Part shown: piece after piece, positions 3,024-11,954 of the stretch
Layout of the letters: each line of letters opens with the position of its first letter
Numbering within the stretch: the first letter of the stretch is position 1
Source of the DNA: a virus
Reading direction: 5' to 3' (one strand)
Length of the DNA: 20,178 nt
Virus record (IMG/VR): IMGVR_UViG_3300006924_000280
Span: 1-20,178 of that record
Program-made: the position numbers and the translations under genes
Notes under the pieces: model-generated
What the model was told of the DNA's origin: nothing
What the model saw: only the letters and a program-made list of their open reading frames with translations
Databases searched by the model: none

Positions 3024-4778
3024 ATGAGTTGGAAAAAACATTTTACACCAGTTAAAACTGGTAATAACACAGAAGGAAGTTACAGTCCGTTTACTGCACG
3101 AAGTGCCGGTGGCGGTCAAGCTGGTCCTGCACGTTCTAACTACTCATCGTACTTACCAGATGTATACATAGGTAGTCCAAATCGTGTTGAACGTTATGGT
3201 CAATACAATACAATGGATATGGATAGTGAGGTAAATGCCGCACTTGATATTCTTGCAGAATTTACTACACAACAAAACAAACAAAATAAAACTCCGTTTT
3301 TAATTGACTTTAAAACTAAAGCAACAAATTCAGAAATTACAATTATATCGCAATACTTACAACAGTGGAGTAAATTACAAAACTTTGAAACACGTATGTT
3401 CCGTTTAATGCGTAACGTGTTTAAGTATGGTGATGCATTTTTTGTTAGAGATCCAGAAACTAAAAAATTGTTTCATGTTGATCCTGCAAAAGTTTCAAAA
3501 ATTATTGTTAACGAAAGTCAAGGTAAAACACCTGAACAATATCTAGTAAAAGACTTTAATTTAAACTTTGCTGAAATGGTAGCAACAACTCCATATCAAA
3601 CAACTGGTCAAGGATCAGGAGGCACAGGCGATGCAGGTTACTTAACTGGCGGCGTTCGTGGCATGGTTGGTAATTCAAGTACAAGTGCAGGCGGTGGACG
3701 TTTTCAACAAGGCGAAAATGAAATTGCAGTTGCATCAGAACACGTTATACATTTAAGTTTATCAGAAGGATTAGACTTAAATTATCCGTTTGGTAATTCA
3801 TTACTAGAAACAGTATTCAAAGTATTCAAACAAAAAGAATTGCTCGAAGATGCGATTATCATATATCGTGTACAAAGAGCTCCAGAAAGAAGAGTATTCT
3901 ACGTTGATGTGGGCAACATGCCATCACACCTTGCTATGCAATTTGTTGAGCGTGTTAAGACGGAAATTCATCAAAGACGAATCCCATCGCAAACGGGGGG
4001 TGGCCAAAACGTTATAGACTCAGCTTACAATCCCCTATCAATTAACGAAGACTACTTCTTCCCACAAACTGCTGAAGGTAGAGGATCTAAAGTTGAAACA
4101 TTGCCAGGCGGTACTAACCTCGGAGAGATAGATGACCTTAGATATTTTACTAATAAGCTCGTACGCGGTTTACGAATCCCTAGTTCATACTTACCGACCG
4201 GGCCTGATGATGGAAATTCTCAGTACACTGACGGACGAGTTGGAACAGCATACATACAAGAACTAAGATTTAATACATACTGTGAACGTTTACAGAATTT
4301 AGTAGTTGAAGAATTTAACCAAGAATTTAAACGTTACATTTTAGAAAAAGGTGTAAACATTGACACAGCAATGTTTGATCTTAAATTTCAACCTCCACAA
4401 AACTTTGCAAGTTATAGACAAAGTGAGATTGATAATGCAAGAGTACCTACGTATTCACAAATGAGTGCAATACCTTATATTTCAAATCGTTTTGCAATGT
4501 CACGTTTCTTAGGAATGAGCGATGAAGAGATTGCAGAAAACGAAAGACTATGGCGCGAAGAAAATGATGAAAATTTAGAAGCGCAAAATACCGATGCCGC
4601 AGGAGAGATGCGTGGTGCAGGAATAAGCGGAGCAGGTATAAGTTCAGACTTAGGGAACATTGAAGACGATGCAACAGAAGAACCAGATCCAACACTTGGT
4701 GGAGATGAAATGGCTGGCGCAACCCCTGAAGCAGGAGCAGAAGAAACCGCACCTCCGGCAACGGATCAAACGATATAA
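3024..4778 (+). CDS. 20: Portal vertex protein, T4 gp20 family
   Basis: A 584-residue protein matching the T4-like portal family in length (T4 gp20 is 524 aa) and in its central region: the 'MDMDSEVNAALDILAEF' block near residues 64-80, 'RNVFKYGDAFFVRDP' near 129-143, and 'GLRIPSSYLPTGPDDGN' in the second half. The portal forms the dodecameric ring at one capsid vertex, starts head assembly and is the channel for DNA packaging. The C-terminal 60 residues are acidic, Ala/Gly/Pro-rich and probably disordered. The ATG at 3024 has an AGGA ribosome site overlapping the TAG of the upstream gene, so the two are closely coupled. The TAA is part of a late-promoter box that serves the next gene. The call rests on several conserved blocks plus the following gp67-21-22-23 order. 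Confidence 0.95.
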   Translation: MSWKKHFTPVKTGNNTEGSYSPFTARSAGGGQAGPARSNYSSYLPDVYIGSPNRVERYGQYNTMDMDSEVNAALDILAEFTTQQNKQNKTPFLIDFKTKATNSEITIISQYLQQWSKLQNFETRMFRLMRNVFKYGDAFFVRDPETKKLFHVDPAKVSKIIVNESQGKTPEQYLVKDFNLNFAEMVATTPYQTTGQGSGGTGDAGYLTGGVRGMVGNSSTSAGGGRFQQGENEIAVASEHVIHLSLSEGLDLNYPFGNSLLETVFKVFKQKELLEDAIIIYRVQRAPERRVFYVDVGNMPSHLAMQFVERVKTEIHQRRIPSQTGGGQNVIDSAYNPLSINEDYFFPQTAEGRGSKVETLPGGTNLGEIDDLRYFTNKLVRGLRIPSSYLPTGPDDGNSQYTDGRVGTAYIQELRFNTYCERLQNLVVEEFNQEFKRYILEKGVNIDTAMFDLKFQPPQNFASYRQSEIDNARVPTYSQMSAIPYISNRFAMSRFLGMSDEEIAENERLWREENDENLEAQNTDAAGEMRGAGISGAGISSDLGNIEDDATEEPDPTLGGDEMAGATPEAGAEETAPPATDQTI

Positions 4779-6857: not shown

Positions 6858-7493
6858 ATGAACAACTTTTTAAGAGAGCACTTGACATTCGACCAGGCTA
6901 ATATAGTCGTTGAGTCTACCGATAACTCCAAAGGAGGCAAAGACCTTTATATGAAAGGTATTTGTATACAAGGCGGTGTGCGTAACGCAAACCAACGTGT
7001 GTATCCTGTAGAAGAAATTGGTAGGGCTGTCAAAACTCTCAATGATCAAATATCCGGAGGATATAGTGTACTCGGGGAAGTTGATCATCCAGAAGGCCTT
7101 AATATTAACTTAGACCGTGTAAGTCACATGATAACAGATTGTTGGATGGACGGCCCAAACGGTTATGGCAAGTTAAAAATTTTACCAACTCCTATGGGAA
7201 AACTAGTTGAAACAATGCTGGAAAGCGGCGTTAAATTAGGTGTTTCCAGTAGGGGCTCTGGTAACGTTTCAGAAGACGGAGGCAATCAAGTCTCCGATTT
7301 TGAAATTATAACAGTTGATGTCGTGGCGCAACCAAGTGCGCCAGGCGCTTACCCAACACCAATCTACGAGCATTTAATGAATGCACGTGGCGGAATGAAG
7401 GCATACGAAATGGCACAGGCAACAAAACAAGACCCAAAGGCACAAAAGTATCTAAAGGAATCGCTAGTGAATATCATTAGCAAACTCCAATAA
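6858..7493 (+). CDS. 21: Prohead core protease, T4 gp21 family
   Basis: A 211-residue protein (T4 gp21 is 212 aa). It has the serine-protease fold shared by T4-type and herpesvirus-type prohead proteases. Likely catalytic residues are His77 in 'GEVDHPEG', the serine in 'LGVSSRGSG' (Ser130 or 131) and possibly Asp154 in 'ITVDVVAQPSAPGAYPTPIYE', a well conserved tail segment. Early in the sequence, 'NANQRVYPVEEIGRAV' is also typical of the family. The enzyme sits in the prohead, and after assembly cleaves scaffold, core proteins and the N-terminus of the major capsid protein, then itself. The ATG at 6858 follows the upstream stop by 15 bases, with a TAAGG site about 10 bases ahead. Confidence 0.95.
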   Translation: MNNFLREHLTFDQANIVVESTDNSKGGKDLYMKGICIQGGVRNANQRVYPVEEIGRAVKTLNDQISGGYSVLGEVDHPEGLNINLDRVSHMITDCWMDGPNGYGKLKILPTPMGKLVETMLESGVKLGVSSRGSGNVSEDGGNQVSDFEIITVDVVAQPSAPGAYPTPIYEHLMNARGGMKAYEMAQATKQDPKAQKYLKESLVNIISKLQ

Positions 7494-7508: not shown

Positions 7509-8618
7509 ATGTTGGATGCACTAAAAACACTTTTCGAAAACGATGTAGTTACGGAAGAAGTGCGCAACGAAATTCAAGAAGCTTGGGACGCGAAGATCAA
7601 AGAGAATCGCCAGCAAGTAACATCAGAGCTACGTGAAGAATTTGCTAAGAAATATGAGCATGACAAAAGTACAATGGTTGAAGCCATTGATACACTTGTA
7701 TCTGAACGTTTAGCAGAAGAAATTGCTGAGTTTGCGGATGACCGCAAAGCATTAGCAGAAGCCCGTGCAAAATATGCAGTTGCTCAGCGTGAAAACGCAG
7801 AGAAACTAAAAGGATTTGTTATGGAGCAACTAACTAAAGAAGTTGGTGAGCTACATGAAGATCAAAAAGCAATGGCGGTTAACTTCGGCAAGCTAGAAGA
7901 ATTTGTTGTAGAAGCACTTGCAAAAGAACTTGCAGAGTTTAACGAAGACAAAAAAGATTTAGCAGAAACTAAAGTACGTTTAGTACGTGAAGCTAAATCA
8001 CACTTCGCTAAAGTTAAAACTAACTTTATCGAAAGAAGTGCTAAAGCAGTATCAGAAACAGTTGACAAAGCTCTTAAAGGAGAAATTGGTCAACTTAAAG
8101 AAGATATTGAAGAAGCACGTAGAAACGATTTTGGGCGTAAACTGTTTGAAGCATTTGCTTCAGAATACGCAGGAAGCTACCTAAATGAAGCGTCAGAAAC
8201 AGCTAAACTAATTAATGTTATCGCTATGAAAGATAAACAAATTAGTGAAGCAAAAACATTTGCTACTAAAGCTAAAGCATTAGCAGAATCTCAGGCAACT
8301 GAGAAGAAGCGTTTAGTAGAAGCGGCAGAAAGAAAAGACGTACTTAATGAACTTGTTGGACCTTTAAGCAAGGACCAAAAAGAGATTATGACAGACTTAC
8401 TGGAATCTGTACAAACTGCAAAACTACGTTCTGCGTTTGACAAGTACCTACCGGCAGTAATAGACGGGAATACTCCAGCCAAAAAGGCAATTTTATCAGA
8501 AGGCAAAGAAGTTACAGGCAACCGTGAACAAAGTTCACAAACTAACGTTAGTAGACAAGCAGACGCAGAACAATTCAACAGAAATGTTGTAGACATTGTG
8601 CGTTTAGCTGGAATATAA
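7509..8618 (+). CDS. 22: Prohead scaffolding core protein, T4 gp22 family
   Basis: A 369-residue protein, Lys/Glu/Ala-rich and nearly all predicted helix and coiled coil, placed exactly between protease and major capsid gene as in T4. T4 gp22 is 269 aa, so this one is longer. The middle (residues about 20-200) contains long heptad-like runs with repeated 'LAEEIAEF.DDRKALAEA', 'LTKEVGELHEDQKAMA' and 'LAKELAEFNEDKKDLAET' units, suggesting internal duplication. The C-terminal third ends 'NRNVVDIVRLAGI'. It forms the transient core around which the gp23 shell assembles and is then degraded by gp21. A GAGGAG ribosome site precedes the ATG, with a 15-base gap from gp21. Confidence 0.9.
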   Translation: MLDALKTLFENDVVTEEVRNEIQEAWDAKIKENRQQVTSELREEFAKKYEHDKSTMVEAIDTLVSERLAEEIAEFADDRKALAEARAKYAVAQRENAEKLKGFVMEQLTKEVGELHEDQKAMAVNFGKLEEFVVEALAKELAEFNEDKKDLAETKVRLVREAKSHFAKVKTNFIERSAKAVSETVDKALKGEIGQLKEDIEEARRNDFGRKLFEAFASEYAGSYLNEASETAKLINVIAMKDKQISEAKTFATKAKALAESQATEKKRLVEAAERKDVLNELVGPLSKDQKEIMTDLLESVQTAKLRSAFDKYLPAVIDGNTPAKKAILSEGKEVTGNREQSSQTNVSRQADAEQFNRNVVDIVRLAGI

Positions 8619-8634
8619 TTTAAGGAGATATGAA

Positions 8635-9807
8635 ATGTCAGAACTACTAGAAAGTCGCTGGCAGGAGACCAAAGGTGCACTAGTTGAAGGATTAACAGGA
8701 AATAAGAAATCTGTTATGGAAGCAACACTTGAGAATACTCGCAAGTATTTGTCAGAGAGTGCAACAGCAGGTGCAACTTCTGCAGGCAACGTAGCAACTC
8801 TAAATAGAGTTATTTTACCAGTTATTAGACGTGTAATGCCAACTGTGATCGCGAACGAGATCGTTGGTGTTCAGCCTATGACAGGACCAGTGGGTCAAAT
8901 CCACACATTACGAGTACGTTACGCTGATGCCTTTACAGGTACAGCAGGCGGATCAGCGGCAGCAGGCGAAGAGGCTTTAAGCCCATTCAAAATTGCTGAA
9001 GGCTATTCAGGTAATGCAAATGGTAAAGCAGACCCAACAGCATCAAAAGAAGGTGTTGCTGGTAACAGACTAAGCATTCAGATTTTAAAGCAAACAGTCG
9101 AAGCTAAGACACGTAAATTGTCAGCTCGCTGGACGTTTGAATCTGCACAAGATGCGCAGTCACAACATGGTATTGATGTTGAAGCAGAAATCATGGCAGC
9201 TCTTGCACAAGAGATCACTGCTGAGATTGATCAAGAAGTATTAACTTCATTAGCATCATTAGCAGGTACAGGTACTGATACTTACAACCAAGCTGGTGTA
9301 AGTGGTACTGCAACATTCGTCGGTGACGAACATGCGGCATTAGCTGTATTAATTAACAGAGCGGCAAACAGAATTGCACAAAGAACACGTAGAGGCGCAG
9401 GTAACTGGGCTGTTGTTTCTCCAGCAATTTTAACTGTCCTTCAATCAGCAACAACTTCAGCGTTTGCAAGAACAACTGAAGGTACGTTTGAAGCACCAAC
9501 TAACACTAAAATGGTTGGTACATTGAACAACGCTATGAAGATCTATGTTAATACATACGCGGCAGACGACGATGTACTAGTTGGCTACAAAGGCTCAAGT
9601 GAATCAGATGCGGCAGCATTCTATTGCCCATACATTCCACTAATGAGCTCAGGTGTTGTACTAGACCCAACTTCATTCGAACCAGTTGTATCATTTATGA
9701 CTAGATACGGATATGTTGAGTTAAACAACACAGCGTCATCTTTAGGTAACGCGGCTGATTACGTTGAAAAAGTTGAAGTGAATAGCGGCAACTTATCATT
9801 CTCGTAA
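8635..9807 (+). CDS. 23: Major capsid protein, T4 gp23 family
   Basis: A 390-residue HK97-fold major capsid protein of the T4 family. Recognisable blocks are 'ATLNRVILPVIRRVMPTVIANEIVGVQPMTGPVGQIHTLRVRY' near residues 53-96, 'VEAKTRKLSARWTFESAQDAQSQHGID' in the middle, 'VLVGYKGSSESDAAAFYCPYIPL' and 'FEPVVSFMTRYG' near the end; I match these to T4 'VRRAIPNLIAFDICGVQPM', 'YSIELAQDLRAVHGMD' and 'VMGFKTRYG'. T4 gp23 is 521 aa, so this form lacks much of the surface insertion and has a shorter N-terminal arm. A gp21-type site is likely at LSE (39-41), giving a mature protein of about 349 residues. A strong AAGGAG site precedes the ATG. An efficient terminator follows the stop. Confidence 0.97.
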   Translation: MSELLESRWQETKGALVEGLTGNKKSVMEATLENTRKYLSESATAGATSAGNVATLNRVILPVIRRVMPTVIANEIVGVQPMTGPVGQIHTLRVRYADAFTGTAGGSAAAGEEALSPFKIAEGYSGNANGKADPTASKEGVAGNRLSIQILKQTVEAKTRKLSARWTFESAQDAQSQHGIDVEAEIMAALAQEITAEIDQEVLTSLASLAGTGTDTYNQAGVSGTATFVGDEHAALAVLINRAANRIAQRTRRGAGNWAVVSPAILTVLQSATTSAFARTTEGTFEAPTNTKMVGTLNNAMKIYVNTYAADDDVLVGYKGSSESDAAAFYCPYIPLMSSGVVLDPTSFEPVVSFMTRYGYVELNNTASSLGNAADYVEKVEVNSGNLSFS

Positions 9808-9932: not shown

Positions 9933-10949
9933 ATGAAACGGACTATAGTTATTCTGTCTGCTCTTTTCGCTTTGATATCATTTCAAGCATTTGCAGACAC
10001 AAAGACCCTCGAAGAAAGAGTTGCTGATTTAGAAAAGTCAGCACCAACGTTACCAACAGGAATGTTTGTTAACGGAAACATTGAAGTATATTACGATTCA
10101 GATACTTATGATTCAGATTTTGATACACGAGCAGAAGTGTTTGTAGGACTACAATCTCAATTAGACGGCCCTATTGATTGGGCAGGCGCAAGTACTAGAT
10201 TTGACTCTCATTATTCTTTAGATACAACATTAAACAATAGCATTGTTGAAAAACAAATTGGCGTTGGTTTAGGAAATACTAGACTTTATGTAGGCGAAAC
10301 AGATGCACAAAGACTAGGATTTGCTAAAACAGCTAAAATTGGTTTACCACTTATCATTACAGAATCTAATAGTAGAATTGACCATAAAGAAAAACTTGTA
10401 CTAACATTTGGCGGATGGGAAAATAATAACGAATTTGATTTTGATGAGCATAGACTAAGCAGAGATTTACCAATTGGATTTACTGTAGGTTATGATGCAG
10501 AAGCAAGTACAGTATACTTAGGTGGTACTGTAAGTTTAGCAGGATTTGCAGAACTATCATATATGCAAATTGGTAATAAAAACAATATTACTGACAACGA
10601 ACTAAATCAACAAGGTGTTGCTGTAGGTTCACAAGTATTACGTAGATACGGCATTCCAGTAGGATTTGGTGTTGAAGTATGGGACGATAAGAATACAGGA
10701 TTAGCAAAAGATGATCGTGTTGACCTTGGTCTTATGTACAACTATTCTAAAGAAACAATGTTTACTGCACATAGAGTATTAAACGATGACTTAGGAACTG
10801 ACGGTACATATCTTGGTGTAGTACATACAGTAGGACCAGTAGAAACAGGTTTCTATTATCATACAGATGTTAAAAATACAAGTGTATGGACAGGTGCAAC
10901 AACTGAGCGTGACGATAGTATTAAAGCTACTCTTAAGTACAAGTTTTAA
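9933..10949 (+). CDS. Phage-encoded outer-membrane porin-like beta-barrel protein
   Basis: A 338-residue protein with a clear Sec signal peptide: MKR, then a hydrophobic core (about residues 5-17) and an AFA cleavage motif (19-21), with the mature chain starting at Asp22. A short coiled-coil segment 'LEERVADLEKS' follows, as at the mature N-terminus of many porins. The rest is alternating-strand sequence rich in Gly, Tyr, Asp and Asn without long helices. The protein ends 'KATLKYKF': terminal Phe with hydrophobic residues at -3, -5 and -7, the outer-membrane beta-barrel signal read by the BAM machinery. These features point to a (probably trimeric) general porin of the outer membrane. The gene is flanked by the gp23 terminator and by a late promoter at its own stop, so it is probably a single-gene late unit. 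Codon use resembles its neighbours, so transfer is not recent. Function is inferred; it could act in exclusion, uptake or envelope weakening. Confidence 0.85.
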   Translation: MKRTIVILSALFALISFQAFADTKTLEERVADLEKSAPTLPTGMFVNGNIEVYYDSDTYDSDFDTRAEVFVGLQSQLDGPIDWAGASTRFDSHYSLDTTLNNSIVEKQIGVGLGNTRLYVGETDAQRLGFAKTAKIGLPLIITESNSRIDHKEKLVLTFGGWENNNEFDFDEHRLSRDLPIGFTVGYDAEASTVYLGGTVSLAGFAELSYMQIGNKNNITDNELNQQGVAVGSQVLRRYGIPVGFGVEVWDDKNTGLAKDDRVDLGLMYNYSKETMFTAHRVLNDDLGTDGTYLGVVHTVGPVETGFYYHTDVKNTSVWTGATTERDDSIKATLKYKF

Positions 10950-10955: not shown

Positions 10956-11029
10956 ATATTACGTTCAGCCAATAGGCCGGGAGTAGCACAAGCGAAGGAA
11001 CGCACTTAACCTTTAACAAGGAGAGTGTT

Positions 11030-11128
11030 ATGGATAATTACACGCTTTGGTGCTTTCAACGAATCATTAAACAGCACCATATAAAAAAAGTTAACTTTTT
11101 ATTAAAAAAGAGGTTGACTTCTGCTTAA
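11030..11128 (+). CDS. Putative 32-residue basic microprotein
   Basis: ATG at 11030 is preceded by a strong AAGGAGAG site (11018-11025) at good spacing, and the frame runs to TAA at 11126-11128. The product begins MDNYTLWCFQRIIKQHH and continues with a Lys/Arg-rich, Leu-containing end (IKKVNFLLKKRLTSA). It is strongly basic with one acidic residue and could form an amphipathic helix. It follows a late promoter and a leader of about 70 bases. Its last codons overlap the -35 box of the downstream RNA promoter. No family is recognised. A nucleic-acid-binding or membrane-active role fits the composition, but the ORF may equally be part of a leader. Confidence 0.5.
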   Translation: MDNYTLWCFQRIIKQHHIKKVNFLLKKRLTSA

Positions 11129-11142
11129 TAGTTTGTTATATT
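11114..11142 (+). promoter_or_regulatory. Near-consensus sigma70 promoter
   Basis: TTGACT (11114-11119), a 17-base spacer, and TATATT (11137-11142): one mismatch in each hexamer and optimal spacing. It is unlike the NATAAATA late boxes of the neighbouring genes, so it should be read by unmodified host polymerase. Predicted start is about 11149-11151. Confidence 0.8.
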
Positions 11143-11148
11143 AAGTAC

Positions 11149-11391
11149 ATAAGTTAGACGACGGTGTAACTTAGATAGTGCAAGGAAGAGGAGTTACAGG
11201 CTCCGAACTTGACTAGTAGCTGTAGTGGCATTGCGTGACTGTGGAGACACAGAGACGTATTTCCGAACGTAACTGTTTGGTGCGAGGTTTGCGGGAACGA
11301 CAGACAGACTGTTAACCGCATTGTTGGTATTCTGAAGTCCAACCTATCACTTTTATTAAAAGCTCGATACTTAATTGTGTCGGGCTTTTTT
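11149..11391 (+). ncRNA. Structured non-coding RNA of about 240 nt, unknown family
   Basis: The stretch between a sigma70 promoter and a strong terminator has no credible ORF. By hand count it is about 47% GC over 11151-11350, higher than the AT-rich genes around it. Hand folding gives: a long-range helix CGGU(g)UAAC (11162-11170) with GUUAACCG (11311-11318), eight pairs with one bulged G; an outer helix GUUAGAC (11153-11159) with GUCCAAC (11337-11343), one A-C mismatch; a hairpin CUGUG-GAGA-CACAG (11239-11252) with a GNRA loop, extended by UGCGU/ACGUA; GGAG/CUCC near 11190-11204; and CGAAC/GUUUG near 11264-11279. Competing helices exist (UGUAACU with AGUUACA; UGCGG with CCGCA; GUUGG with CCAAC). 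I tested tRNA, tmRNA, RNase P and 6S signatures by eye and found no match. Confidence 0.75.
11359..11391 (+). terminator. Rho-independent terminator of the RNA gene
   Basis: AAAGCTCGATAC pairs with GTGTCGGGCTTT over 12 positions (two G-U pairs) around a TTAATT loop, followed by more Ts. A late promoter begins eight bases after it, so the RNA gene is insulated from the next unit. Confidence 0.93.
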
Positions 11392-11398
11392 CTTTTAT

Positions 11399-11406
11399 GA
11401 TAAATA
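11399..11406 (+). promoter_or_regulatory. Late promoter GATAAATA
   Basis: Matches the NATAAATA pattern and is placed directly after the RNA terminator. It should drive the 149-aa gene and the structural genes after it. Confidence 0.65.
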
Positions 11407-11504
11407 CATATGTCAAATAGTGTGCCGCAAGGCGGACTTATGCTGTTTAACCCACAGCGTAGCTCATAGAACGGGCATAGGACTACTTAAATAGGAGAAA
11501 ACAA
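11407..11504 (+). promoter_or_regulatory. Long structured 5' leader of the 149-aa gene
   Basis: About 95 transcribed non-coding bases. A GCC-GCAA-GGC tetraloop hairpin (11424-11433) is followed by a stronger 9-bp hairpin (11438-11462, TTATGCTGT with ACAGCGTAG, 7-base loop). An AGGAG site at about 11493-11497 serves the ATG at 11505. GTAG (11459-11462) could also pair with CTAC (11482-11485), which would compete with the second hairpin. The leader may tune translation or stability of an abundant late mRNA. Confidence 0.5.
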
Positions 11505-11954
11505 ATGGGAAGACCACTTAATAAAAGATTATTCGGAACACCAACAGCTAATGGTTCTGAAGTTAAAGTAAACTTTCATAACGGCACAGCAGTTAAAGAA
11601 GGTTACATTGTAAAGCAAAAAGGCTCAAAGAAATTTGTATGTGAAGAAATTGAAACAGCAGGCGAATTTACTTGTGTACTAACAACTGGTAAATTACCAG
11701 CGGCACTAGCGGCAGGCGAAATGTCAATTTCATTCAAAATGGATGATGCAGAAACATACACAGTAAGTAAAATTGCTGGACGTAAAGCAACATTATCAGC
11801 ACCAAGTGCAACAGGTACTAACTTATATGACGGCAACAGTGTTGCTTGGAACTTTAGTACATCTGTAGCAGATGGAGCGGCACAAGTTGAAGAAGCAGGT
11901 GATGATAACACATTAACTGGTACTGATGACGACGACTTTACAGAAGACGCATAA
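11505..11954 (+). CDS. Small virion structural protein of marine T4-like type (149 aa)
   Basis: A 149-residue protein starting 'MGRPLNKRLFG', a start I associate with a common small structural protein of marine T4-like phages. It is predicted beta-rich: 'EVKVNFHNGTAVKEGYIVKQKGSKKFVCEE', 'EMSISFKMDDAETYTVSKIAGRKATLS' and 'SVAWNFS', followed by a very acidic, likely disordered C-terminus (about residues 120-149). The next gene is a diverged paralogue. Expression is from a late promoter with a long leader and a strong AGGAG site, so it is probably abundant. The exact role (head decoration, neck or appendage) cannot be told from sequence. Confidence 0.75.
   Translation: MGRPLNKRLFGTPTANGSEVKVNFHNGTAVKEGYIVKQKGSKKFVCEEIETAGEFTCVLTTGKLPAALAAGEMSISFKMDDAETYTVSKIAGRKATLSAPSATGTNLYDGNSVAWNFSTSVADGAAQVEEAGDDNTLTGTDDDDFTEDA

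Follow-up and report, generated by a model that had tools for sequence, protein, structure and literature searches.

The put RNA of phage HK022 is a structured phage RNA that opens an early transcript and acts in cis on polymerase, and RNAs C and D from the tRNA cluster of T4 are small stable RNAs of unknown function. The closest described system for the locus studied here is manA, an orphan family since 2010 that is typed as cis-regulatory and was already known in T4-like cyanophages (PMC2864571). In S-CREM1, manA was reported together with wcaG and abiF (PMC9964418). A 2020 survey of pelagimyophages found no riboswitches with its tool (PMC7029224), and Gln riboswitches were reported in Melnitz and Mosig (PMC9004378). 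Our literature search returned no statement of manA as a promoter-to-terminator unit, nor of a divergent subfamily such as the one we call “type II” (a name coined here).

We analyzed a window of 20,178 nt (the whole stretch of viral DNA under study), which covers part of the structural gene cluster of a marine T4-like phage. Like classical manA from P-SSM2, P-SSM4, P-HM1, and S-SSM5, the RNA in this window matches the model over its full length, has the same helices and the same P5-P6 loop pairing, follows a fixed 5′ promoter, and occurs once per record. A manA copy directly after gp23 is also found in P-HM1, P-RSM4, and S-SSM5. The window RNA scores 40.8 bits compared to 140-195 bits for classical manA. 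Unlike the classical copies, type II RNAs are almost always closed by their own terminator, and the capsid and portal of their carrier phages are nearest those of PA5oct, 121Q, and Atu_ph07. We found an unannotated manA in Mosig, a cultured Pelagibacter/SAR11 phage that also has a tmRNA (MT647606.1, 108164-108371, minus strand; 4014-4221 of our locus L119). The Mosig copy is intermediate in sequence (64.0 bits) and shares with the window RNA a promoter directly before the RNA. In contrast to the window RNA, it has no terminator and runs straight into a rubrerythrin gene, whose start codon follows shortly after. The window RNA differs from put in that a terminator follows at once. Some type I (classical) copies among the matches listed adjoin tRNA genes, which recalls RNAs C and D, although hosts and sizes differ. 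Both likenesses are by description only.

The window RNA and its neighborhood

The RNA lies behind the capsid gene, in a gap that runs from the stop codon at 10949 to the next start codon at 11505 and that also holds the other RNA elements. The features of the window are as follows (strand given for the RNA unit and the late-promoter-like motif).

3024-4778: portal (PHROGs assignment)
6858-7493: head maturation protease (PHROGs assignment)
7509-8618: scaffold (assigned here from gene order alone)
8635-9807: major head protein (PHROGs assignment)
10960-11006: glutamine riboswitch aptamer (RF01739, 42.3 bits, above cut-off)
11030-11128: 32-aa ORF MDNYTLWCFQRIIKQHHIKKVNFLLKKRLTSA, with a ribosome-binding site in front, overlapping the manA promoter
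11114-11389, + strand: promoter-RNA-terminator unit, the feature under study
11114-11142, + strand: sigma70-type promoter, TTGACT-17-TATATT with a TG-extended -10, predicted start near 11149
11150-11353, + strand: divergent manA RNA (RF01745, full-length match 11151-11353)
11358-11389, + strand: intrinsic terminator of 13 pairs, then TTCTTTT, a U-rich tail
11399-11407, + strand: late-promoter-like GATAAATAC before the next gene and outside the RNA unit, read from the sequence
11421-11507: freshwater-2 motif (RF02980, 67.9 bits), ending at the start codon of the 149-aa protein gene

The named phages nearest to the carriers by capsid and portal protein are large ones, and contigs of 184,930 and 200,843 bases are among the carriers of the same RNA. 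Behind the capsid gene, a 338-aa protein (9933-10949) has a signal-like N-terminus and the look of an outer-membrane porin; it had no match in PHROG or Pfam and is carried by only 19 loci in IMG/VR. The 32-aa ORF had no match in a Pfam search. Among the matches listed, the module of Gln riboswitch and small ORF stands upstream of manA at 24/70 type II loci and 0/95 type I loci. The freshwater-2 motif is kept before the 149-aa gene in relatives, including those where no manA was found.

Using cmscan, we aligned 11151-11353 with RF01745 (manA) over model positions 1-192 of 192 (E value of 1.4e-7 for the 20-kb window). The score is below the RF01745 gathering score of 55.2 bits. The copy nevertheless aligns with the full-length consensus sequence and structure, and the consensus helices are kept by compensatory changes. 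Copies in related phages reach 57.9-59.8 bits, above the gathering score. Across the 35 records searched (34 with the neighboring 149-aa gene, plus Melnitz), manA was found in 17, with 6 of these above the cut-off, and each of 28/28 carrier records, many of them fragments, held exactly one match. Since the window copy links to manA through these intermediates (relatives at up to 59.8 bits, then Mosig), we regard it as a divergent relative and not a curated member. Judged by these alignments, the window RNA is a divergent manA RNA rather than a new family. The preliminary description had stated that it matches no RNA family its author could recognize, but the family is a known one: it is RF01745, below the gathering score here and above it in some relatives. 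The Rfam label “cis-regulatory in 5′ UTR” is a functional label, not a sequence criterion, and it does not fit the window copy or most type II copies, given their own terminator and the late-promoter-like motif.

In a blastn search of the window against named phages, the sole matches were to the Gln riboswitch region in Melnitz and, weakly, to Bacillus phages; with a type II relative as the query, a match in Mosig appeared. Weak matches to VrrA and NsiR1 (E value of about 1) were mostly due to the terminator hairpin and were discarded. Protein coding on either strand was ruled out because indels between homologues are 1-2 nt, not multiples of 3. The sole ORF listed in the feature (62 aa, minus strand) is not credible, in agreement with the first reading of this stretch. 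That reading had also noted a higher GC content than in the flanks, and we measured 46.6% in the RNA feature versus 35-36%. The MFE z-score of the RNA stretch was -3.5.

Fold, covariation, and loop pairing

The predicted fold comprises the following elements, all on the + strand.

11150-11173: P1, the 5′-terminal hairpin of the RNA (11150-11159 with 11164-11173); double changes in 5/10 pairs, 85.5% of cells paired
11174-11178 with 11344-11348: P2 closing helix (GAUAG with CUAUC), the outer helix of the Rfam model
11181-11211: P3 and its apical part (11181-11184 CAAG with 11208-11211 CUUG); invariant in the 20-sequence set
11213-11286: P4 multibranch (11213-11218 with 11281-11286), enclosing P4b and P4c
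11231-11260: P4b, with a GAGA tetraloop hairpin at 11239-11252
11263-11280: P4c, within the P4 multibranch
11290-11320: P5 (11290-11293 with 11317-11320); double changes in 4/4 counted pairs
11300-11312: P5 apical hairpin, whose loop forms the kissing contact
11323-11343: P6 hairpin; its 11-nt loop (11328-11338) is the pairing partner of the P5 apical loop

In 20 window-type sequences, the 49 pairs of these nine helices were 94.4% paired, and double compensatory changes occurred in 26 of them. We counted 141 doubly changed cells compared to 46 ± 6 in shuffles, with 0/500 reaching the observed value; the covariation score was 0.456 versus 0.196 (0/500). Sliding the partners by 1-3 columns lowered pairing to 31-40%. 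P4, P4b, the apical part of P4b, and P4c together had double changes in 16/21 pairs. P2 and P3 are invariant in the 20 sequences, so this set provides no covariation evidence for P2 within type II and is no test of either helix. In the alignment, P3 is altered on both strands to CAUC/GAUG in two further loci (L083 and L327). The preliminary description had named a lack of both covariation and conservation in relatives as grounds against the RNA; covariation and conservation are both present. Its GNRA hairpin at 11239-11252 gained support from double changes in 4/4 counted pairs. Its 8-pair long-range helix (11162-11170 with 11311-11318) fared no better than shuffles (50% of cells paired versus 46.7%), conflicts with the covarying P1 and P5, and was rejected.

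For manA, Weinberg et al. (2010) noted a less well supported “pseudoknot?” (PMC2864571), which by our own reading is the P5-P6 loop contact. In the window, this contact is UCUG with CAGA. The loop helix averaged 4.3 pairs in type II versus 3.15 ± 0.20 (SD) when loops were swapped between phages (0/500) and 4.79 pairs in type I versus 3.95 ± 0.17 with swapped loops (0/500). Both values refer to the folded P5 apical loop, a restriction chosen after a first test over a broad P5 region, which was uninformative for type I. Taken together, these comparisons mean that the manA fold is well supported and that the two loops, P5 and P6, change in concert in the manner of a kissing contact.

Promoters and terminators at related loci

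The window is AT-rich, and scans found promoters and terminators about as often as shuffled sequence does (13 promoters found versus 14.2 expected; 3 terminators versus 2.0). Since neither is more frequent than chance here, we tested conservation, and it is conservation that makes both credible. The promoter was present in 11/11 first relatives. With two degenerate patterns, we then gathered two sets of relatives from IMG/VR, type II (window-like) and type I (classical cyanophage). All counts are among the matches listed, so that more such loci exist than are counted here, and describe pattern-selected loci close to the patterns, many on fragmentary contigs; these loci are related to each other, so the counts are not independent events.

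At type II loci, a sigma70-like promoter matching at least 10/12 consensus positions abuts the RNA 5′ end at a fixed distance in 84/94 matches listed, compared to 17/1800 random windows. A terminator within 110 nt was found in 71/90 matches listed versus 173/1800 random windows. A second detector found one in 61/70, leaving 9/70 with none detected, and in 60 of these 61 terminator-bearing loci the hairpin starts 14-21 nt past the conserved RNA 3′ end. The promoter and the strong, U-tailed terminator called in the preliminary description are therefore real features of the window that recur across type II. They are conserved with the RNA, as is characteristic of a stand-alone small RNA gene. The earlier proposal of a self-contained structured RNA gene held for promoter, fold, terminator, and covariation, but not for the unknown family or the long-range helix. 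Its suggestions of early expression and of an action on the host are tentative. A late-promoter motif stands ahead of the next gene in 74/94 type II matches listed versus 52/1900 random windows, with a pattern slightly broader on the loci than in the control. The gene downstream varies widely, and with a late-promoter-like motif behind the terminator it need not depend on the manA promoter. In one type II subgroup (L262, L273, L303, L309, L316, and L342), the promoter is weakened (TTGCTT or TTGATT) and the terminator is also absent, as if the two decay together.

Type I pattern matches score 140-195 bits against RF01745. Classical cyanophage manA has a fixed promoter and a single copy, as in type II, and often leads into unrelated genes. 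The promoter (at least 10/12) was present in 105/108 matches listed versus 59/2160 random windows, a coding start lies at most 60 nt downstream in 58/109, and a terminator was found in 32/109. Clustering the nearest ORFs up to 250 nt away by sequence gave about 34 groups among the matches listed, some of them perhaps short spurious reading frames. gp32 (28 loci) and transaldolase (10) make up the largest groups; these names rest on the sequence and on annotated relatives in P-HM2 and P-TIM68. Two pattern matches were dropped as chance: L242 and L246 score 8 and 7 for the promoter, and the sequence that follows in them is unrelated.

Possible roles of the RNA and minor observations

Our preferred reading, with a probability of about 0.6, is that 11150-11353 is a small RNA gene of the manA family whose product would be early and act in trans. 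Host RNA polymerase with the housekeeping sigma factor would start at the dedicated promoter directly before P1, and the intrinsic terminator immediately beyond P2 and P6 would end the transcript at about 240 nt. The RNA would fold into a closed multibranch structure locked by the P5-P6 kissing loop. With the next gene having its own late-promoter-like motif, the RNA would not be a leader of that gene; most likely it would serve in trans, its folded form binding a protein or a small molecule. Comparison among loci supports the homology, the fold, and the conserved promoter and terminator, and it showed no covariation of terminator and RNA. Early timing is suggested by the sigma70-type promoter, and action in trans is suggested by the architecture. 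Promoter and RNA are constant and what follows is variable, which favors the RNA as the product without proving it. Counting against an RNA gene are the classification of manA as cis-regulatory, the leader geometry in Mosig and about half of the type I matches listed, and the type II matches listed that lack a detected terminator.

That same leader geometry, together with 5′ UTR positions and the classification by Rfam and Weinberg et al. (PMC2864571), speaks for a cis-regulatory leader, probably a riboswitch, in which the terminator would be the expression platform controlling the downstream structural gene. The terminators themselves make this unlikely. Behind 65 distinct type II RNAs among the matches listed there are 53 distinct terminator hairpins, and unrelated terminators follow RNAs up to 98% alike. 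The pairing energy of a terminator arm is no more favorable with the RNA in front of it (-7.94 kcal/mol) than with RNAs from other loci (-7.86 ± 0.16 kcal/mol), and 298/1000 swaps were as good as the own RNA. We found neither the shared alternative pairings nor the coevolution of a riboswitch with a terminator platform. Terminators that turn over without tracking the RNA argue against a terminator-based riboswitch, and with no arm preference selection appears to maintain it for ending transcription, not for switching. The late-promoter-like motif of the next gene, the unrelatedness of the genes downstream, and four type I copies among the matches listed that lie 13-14 nt before tRNA genes also do not fit a leader. 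We favor regarding the leader-like manA cases as passengers or processed.

Unrelated downstream genes, tRNAs included, fit a promoter-proximal element that serves the transcript it belongs to, either by stabilizing its 5′ end or by modifying polymerase for processive antitermination in the manner of put. In line with this, a strong promoter always stands directly at the start of manA, and terminators or U-tailed hairpins follow part of type I. In type II, however, an efficient-looking terminator comes directly after the RNA and a promoter-like motif serves the next gene, which leaves read-through without a purpose, and we consider such an element improbable, more so than a leader. About equally improbable is an sRNA that base pairs with mRNAs of the host or the phage and uses its folded part as a scaffold. 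Its promoter-to-terminator organization would be typical of bacterial sRNAs, and the stretch AGUGCAAGGAA is invariant in the 20 window-type sequences, but that stretch differs in the type I consensus, and structure and loop-loop pairing dominate conservation.

Extending the trans-acting RNA gene to the whole family is more tentative, and we put it at somewhat less than even odds. manA would then be a single-copy, early-transcribed RNA gene of marine T4-like phages and not a riboswitch family, the downstream cyanophage genes would be passengers of its promoter, and the target would be a conserved host component (polymerase, RNase, ribosome, or metabolite pool). A large subfamily in which this fold stands between an early-type promoter of its own and a terminator that is swapped freely shifts the question from the metabolite sensed by a leader to the effect of a phage RNA on the cell. 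This is testable, since related copies are present in phages in culture: Mosig, which infects Pelagibacter, and the Prochlorococcus phages P-SSM2 (NC_006883, manA at 142837-143034), P-SSM4 (AY940168, 164829-165014), and P-HM2 (GU075905, 4771-4969).

Upstream of type I manA, e.g., in L143 and P-RSM4 (L447), the -35 box lies inside a terminator hairpin (GAGGGTGCTTGACACCCTCTTTTTTT), an arrangement found in 39/107 type I matches listed versus 12/269 other promoter-like sites. A single sequence may thereby stop transcription that arrives from upstream and initiate that of the manA RNA, and the hairpin would shield the unit from upstream transcription. Between type I manA and the next gene, a U-tailed hairpin with conserved internal sequence (AGACCTAAGATGCAACTC-loop-GAGTSGGGCAGATGGTCT) recurs, e.g., in L210, L221, L126, L143, and L168; an Rfam search with it gave no match. 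Annotated hypothetical proteins overlap manA in P-SSM4 (L443; PSSM4_169.1), P-HM1 (L445; PHM1_121), P-HM2 (L446; PHM2_011 and PHM2_012), and S-SSM5 (L449; SSSM5_127), and these ORFs are probably spurious. In a contig filed as Nonlabens xiamenensis (L243, NZ_RMVE01000006.1), manA (141.7 bits) occurs along with PhotoRC-II and is followed by a transaldolase-like ORF; this is possibly cyanophage sequence in the assembly.
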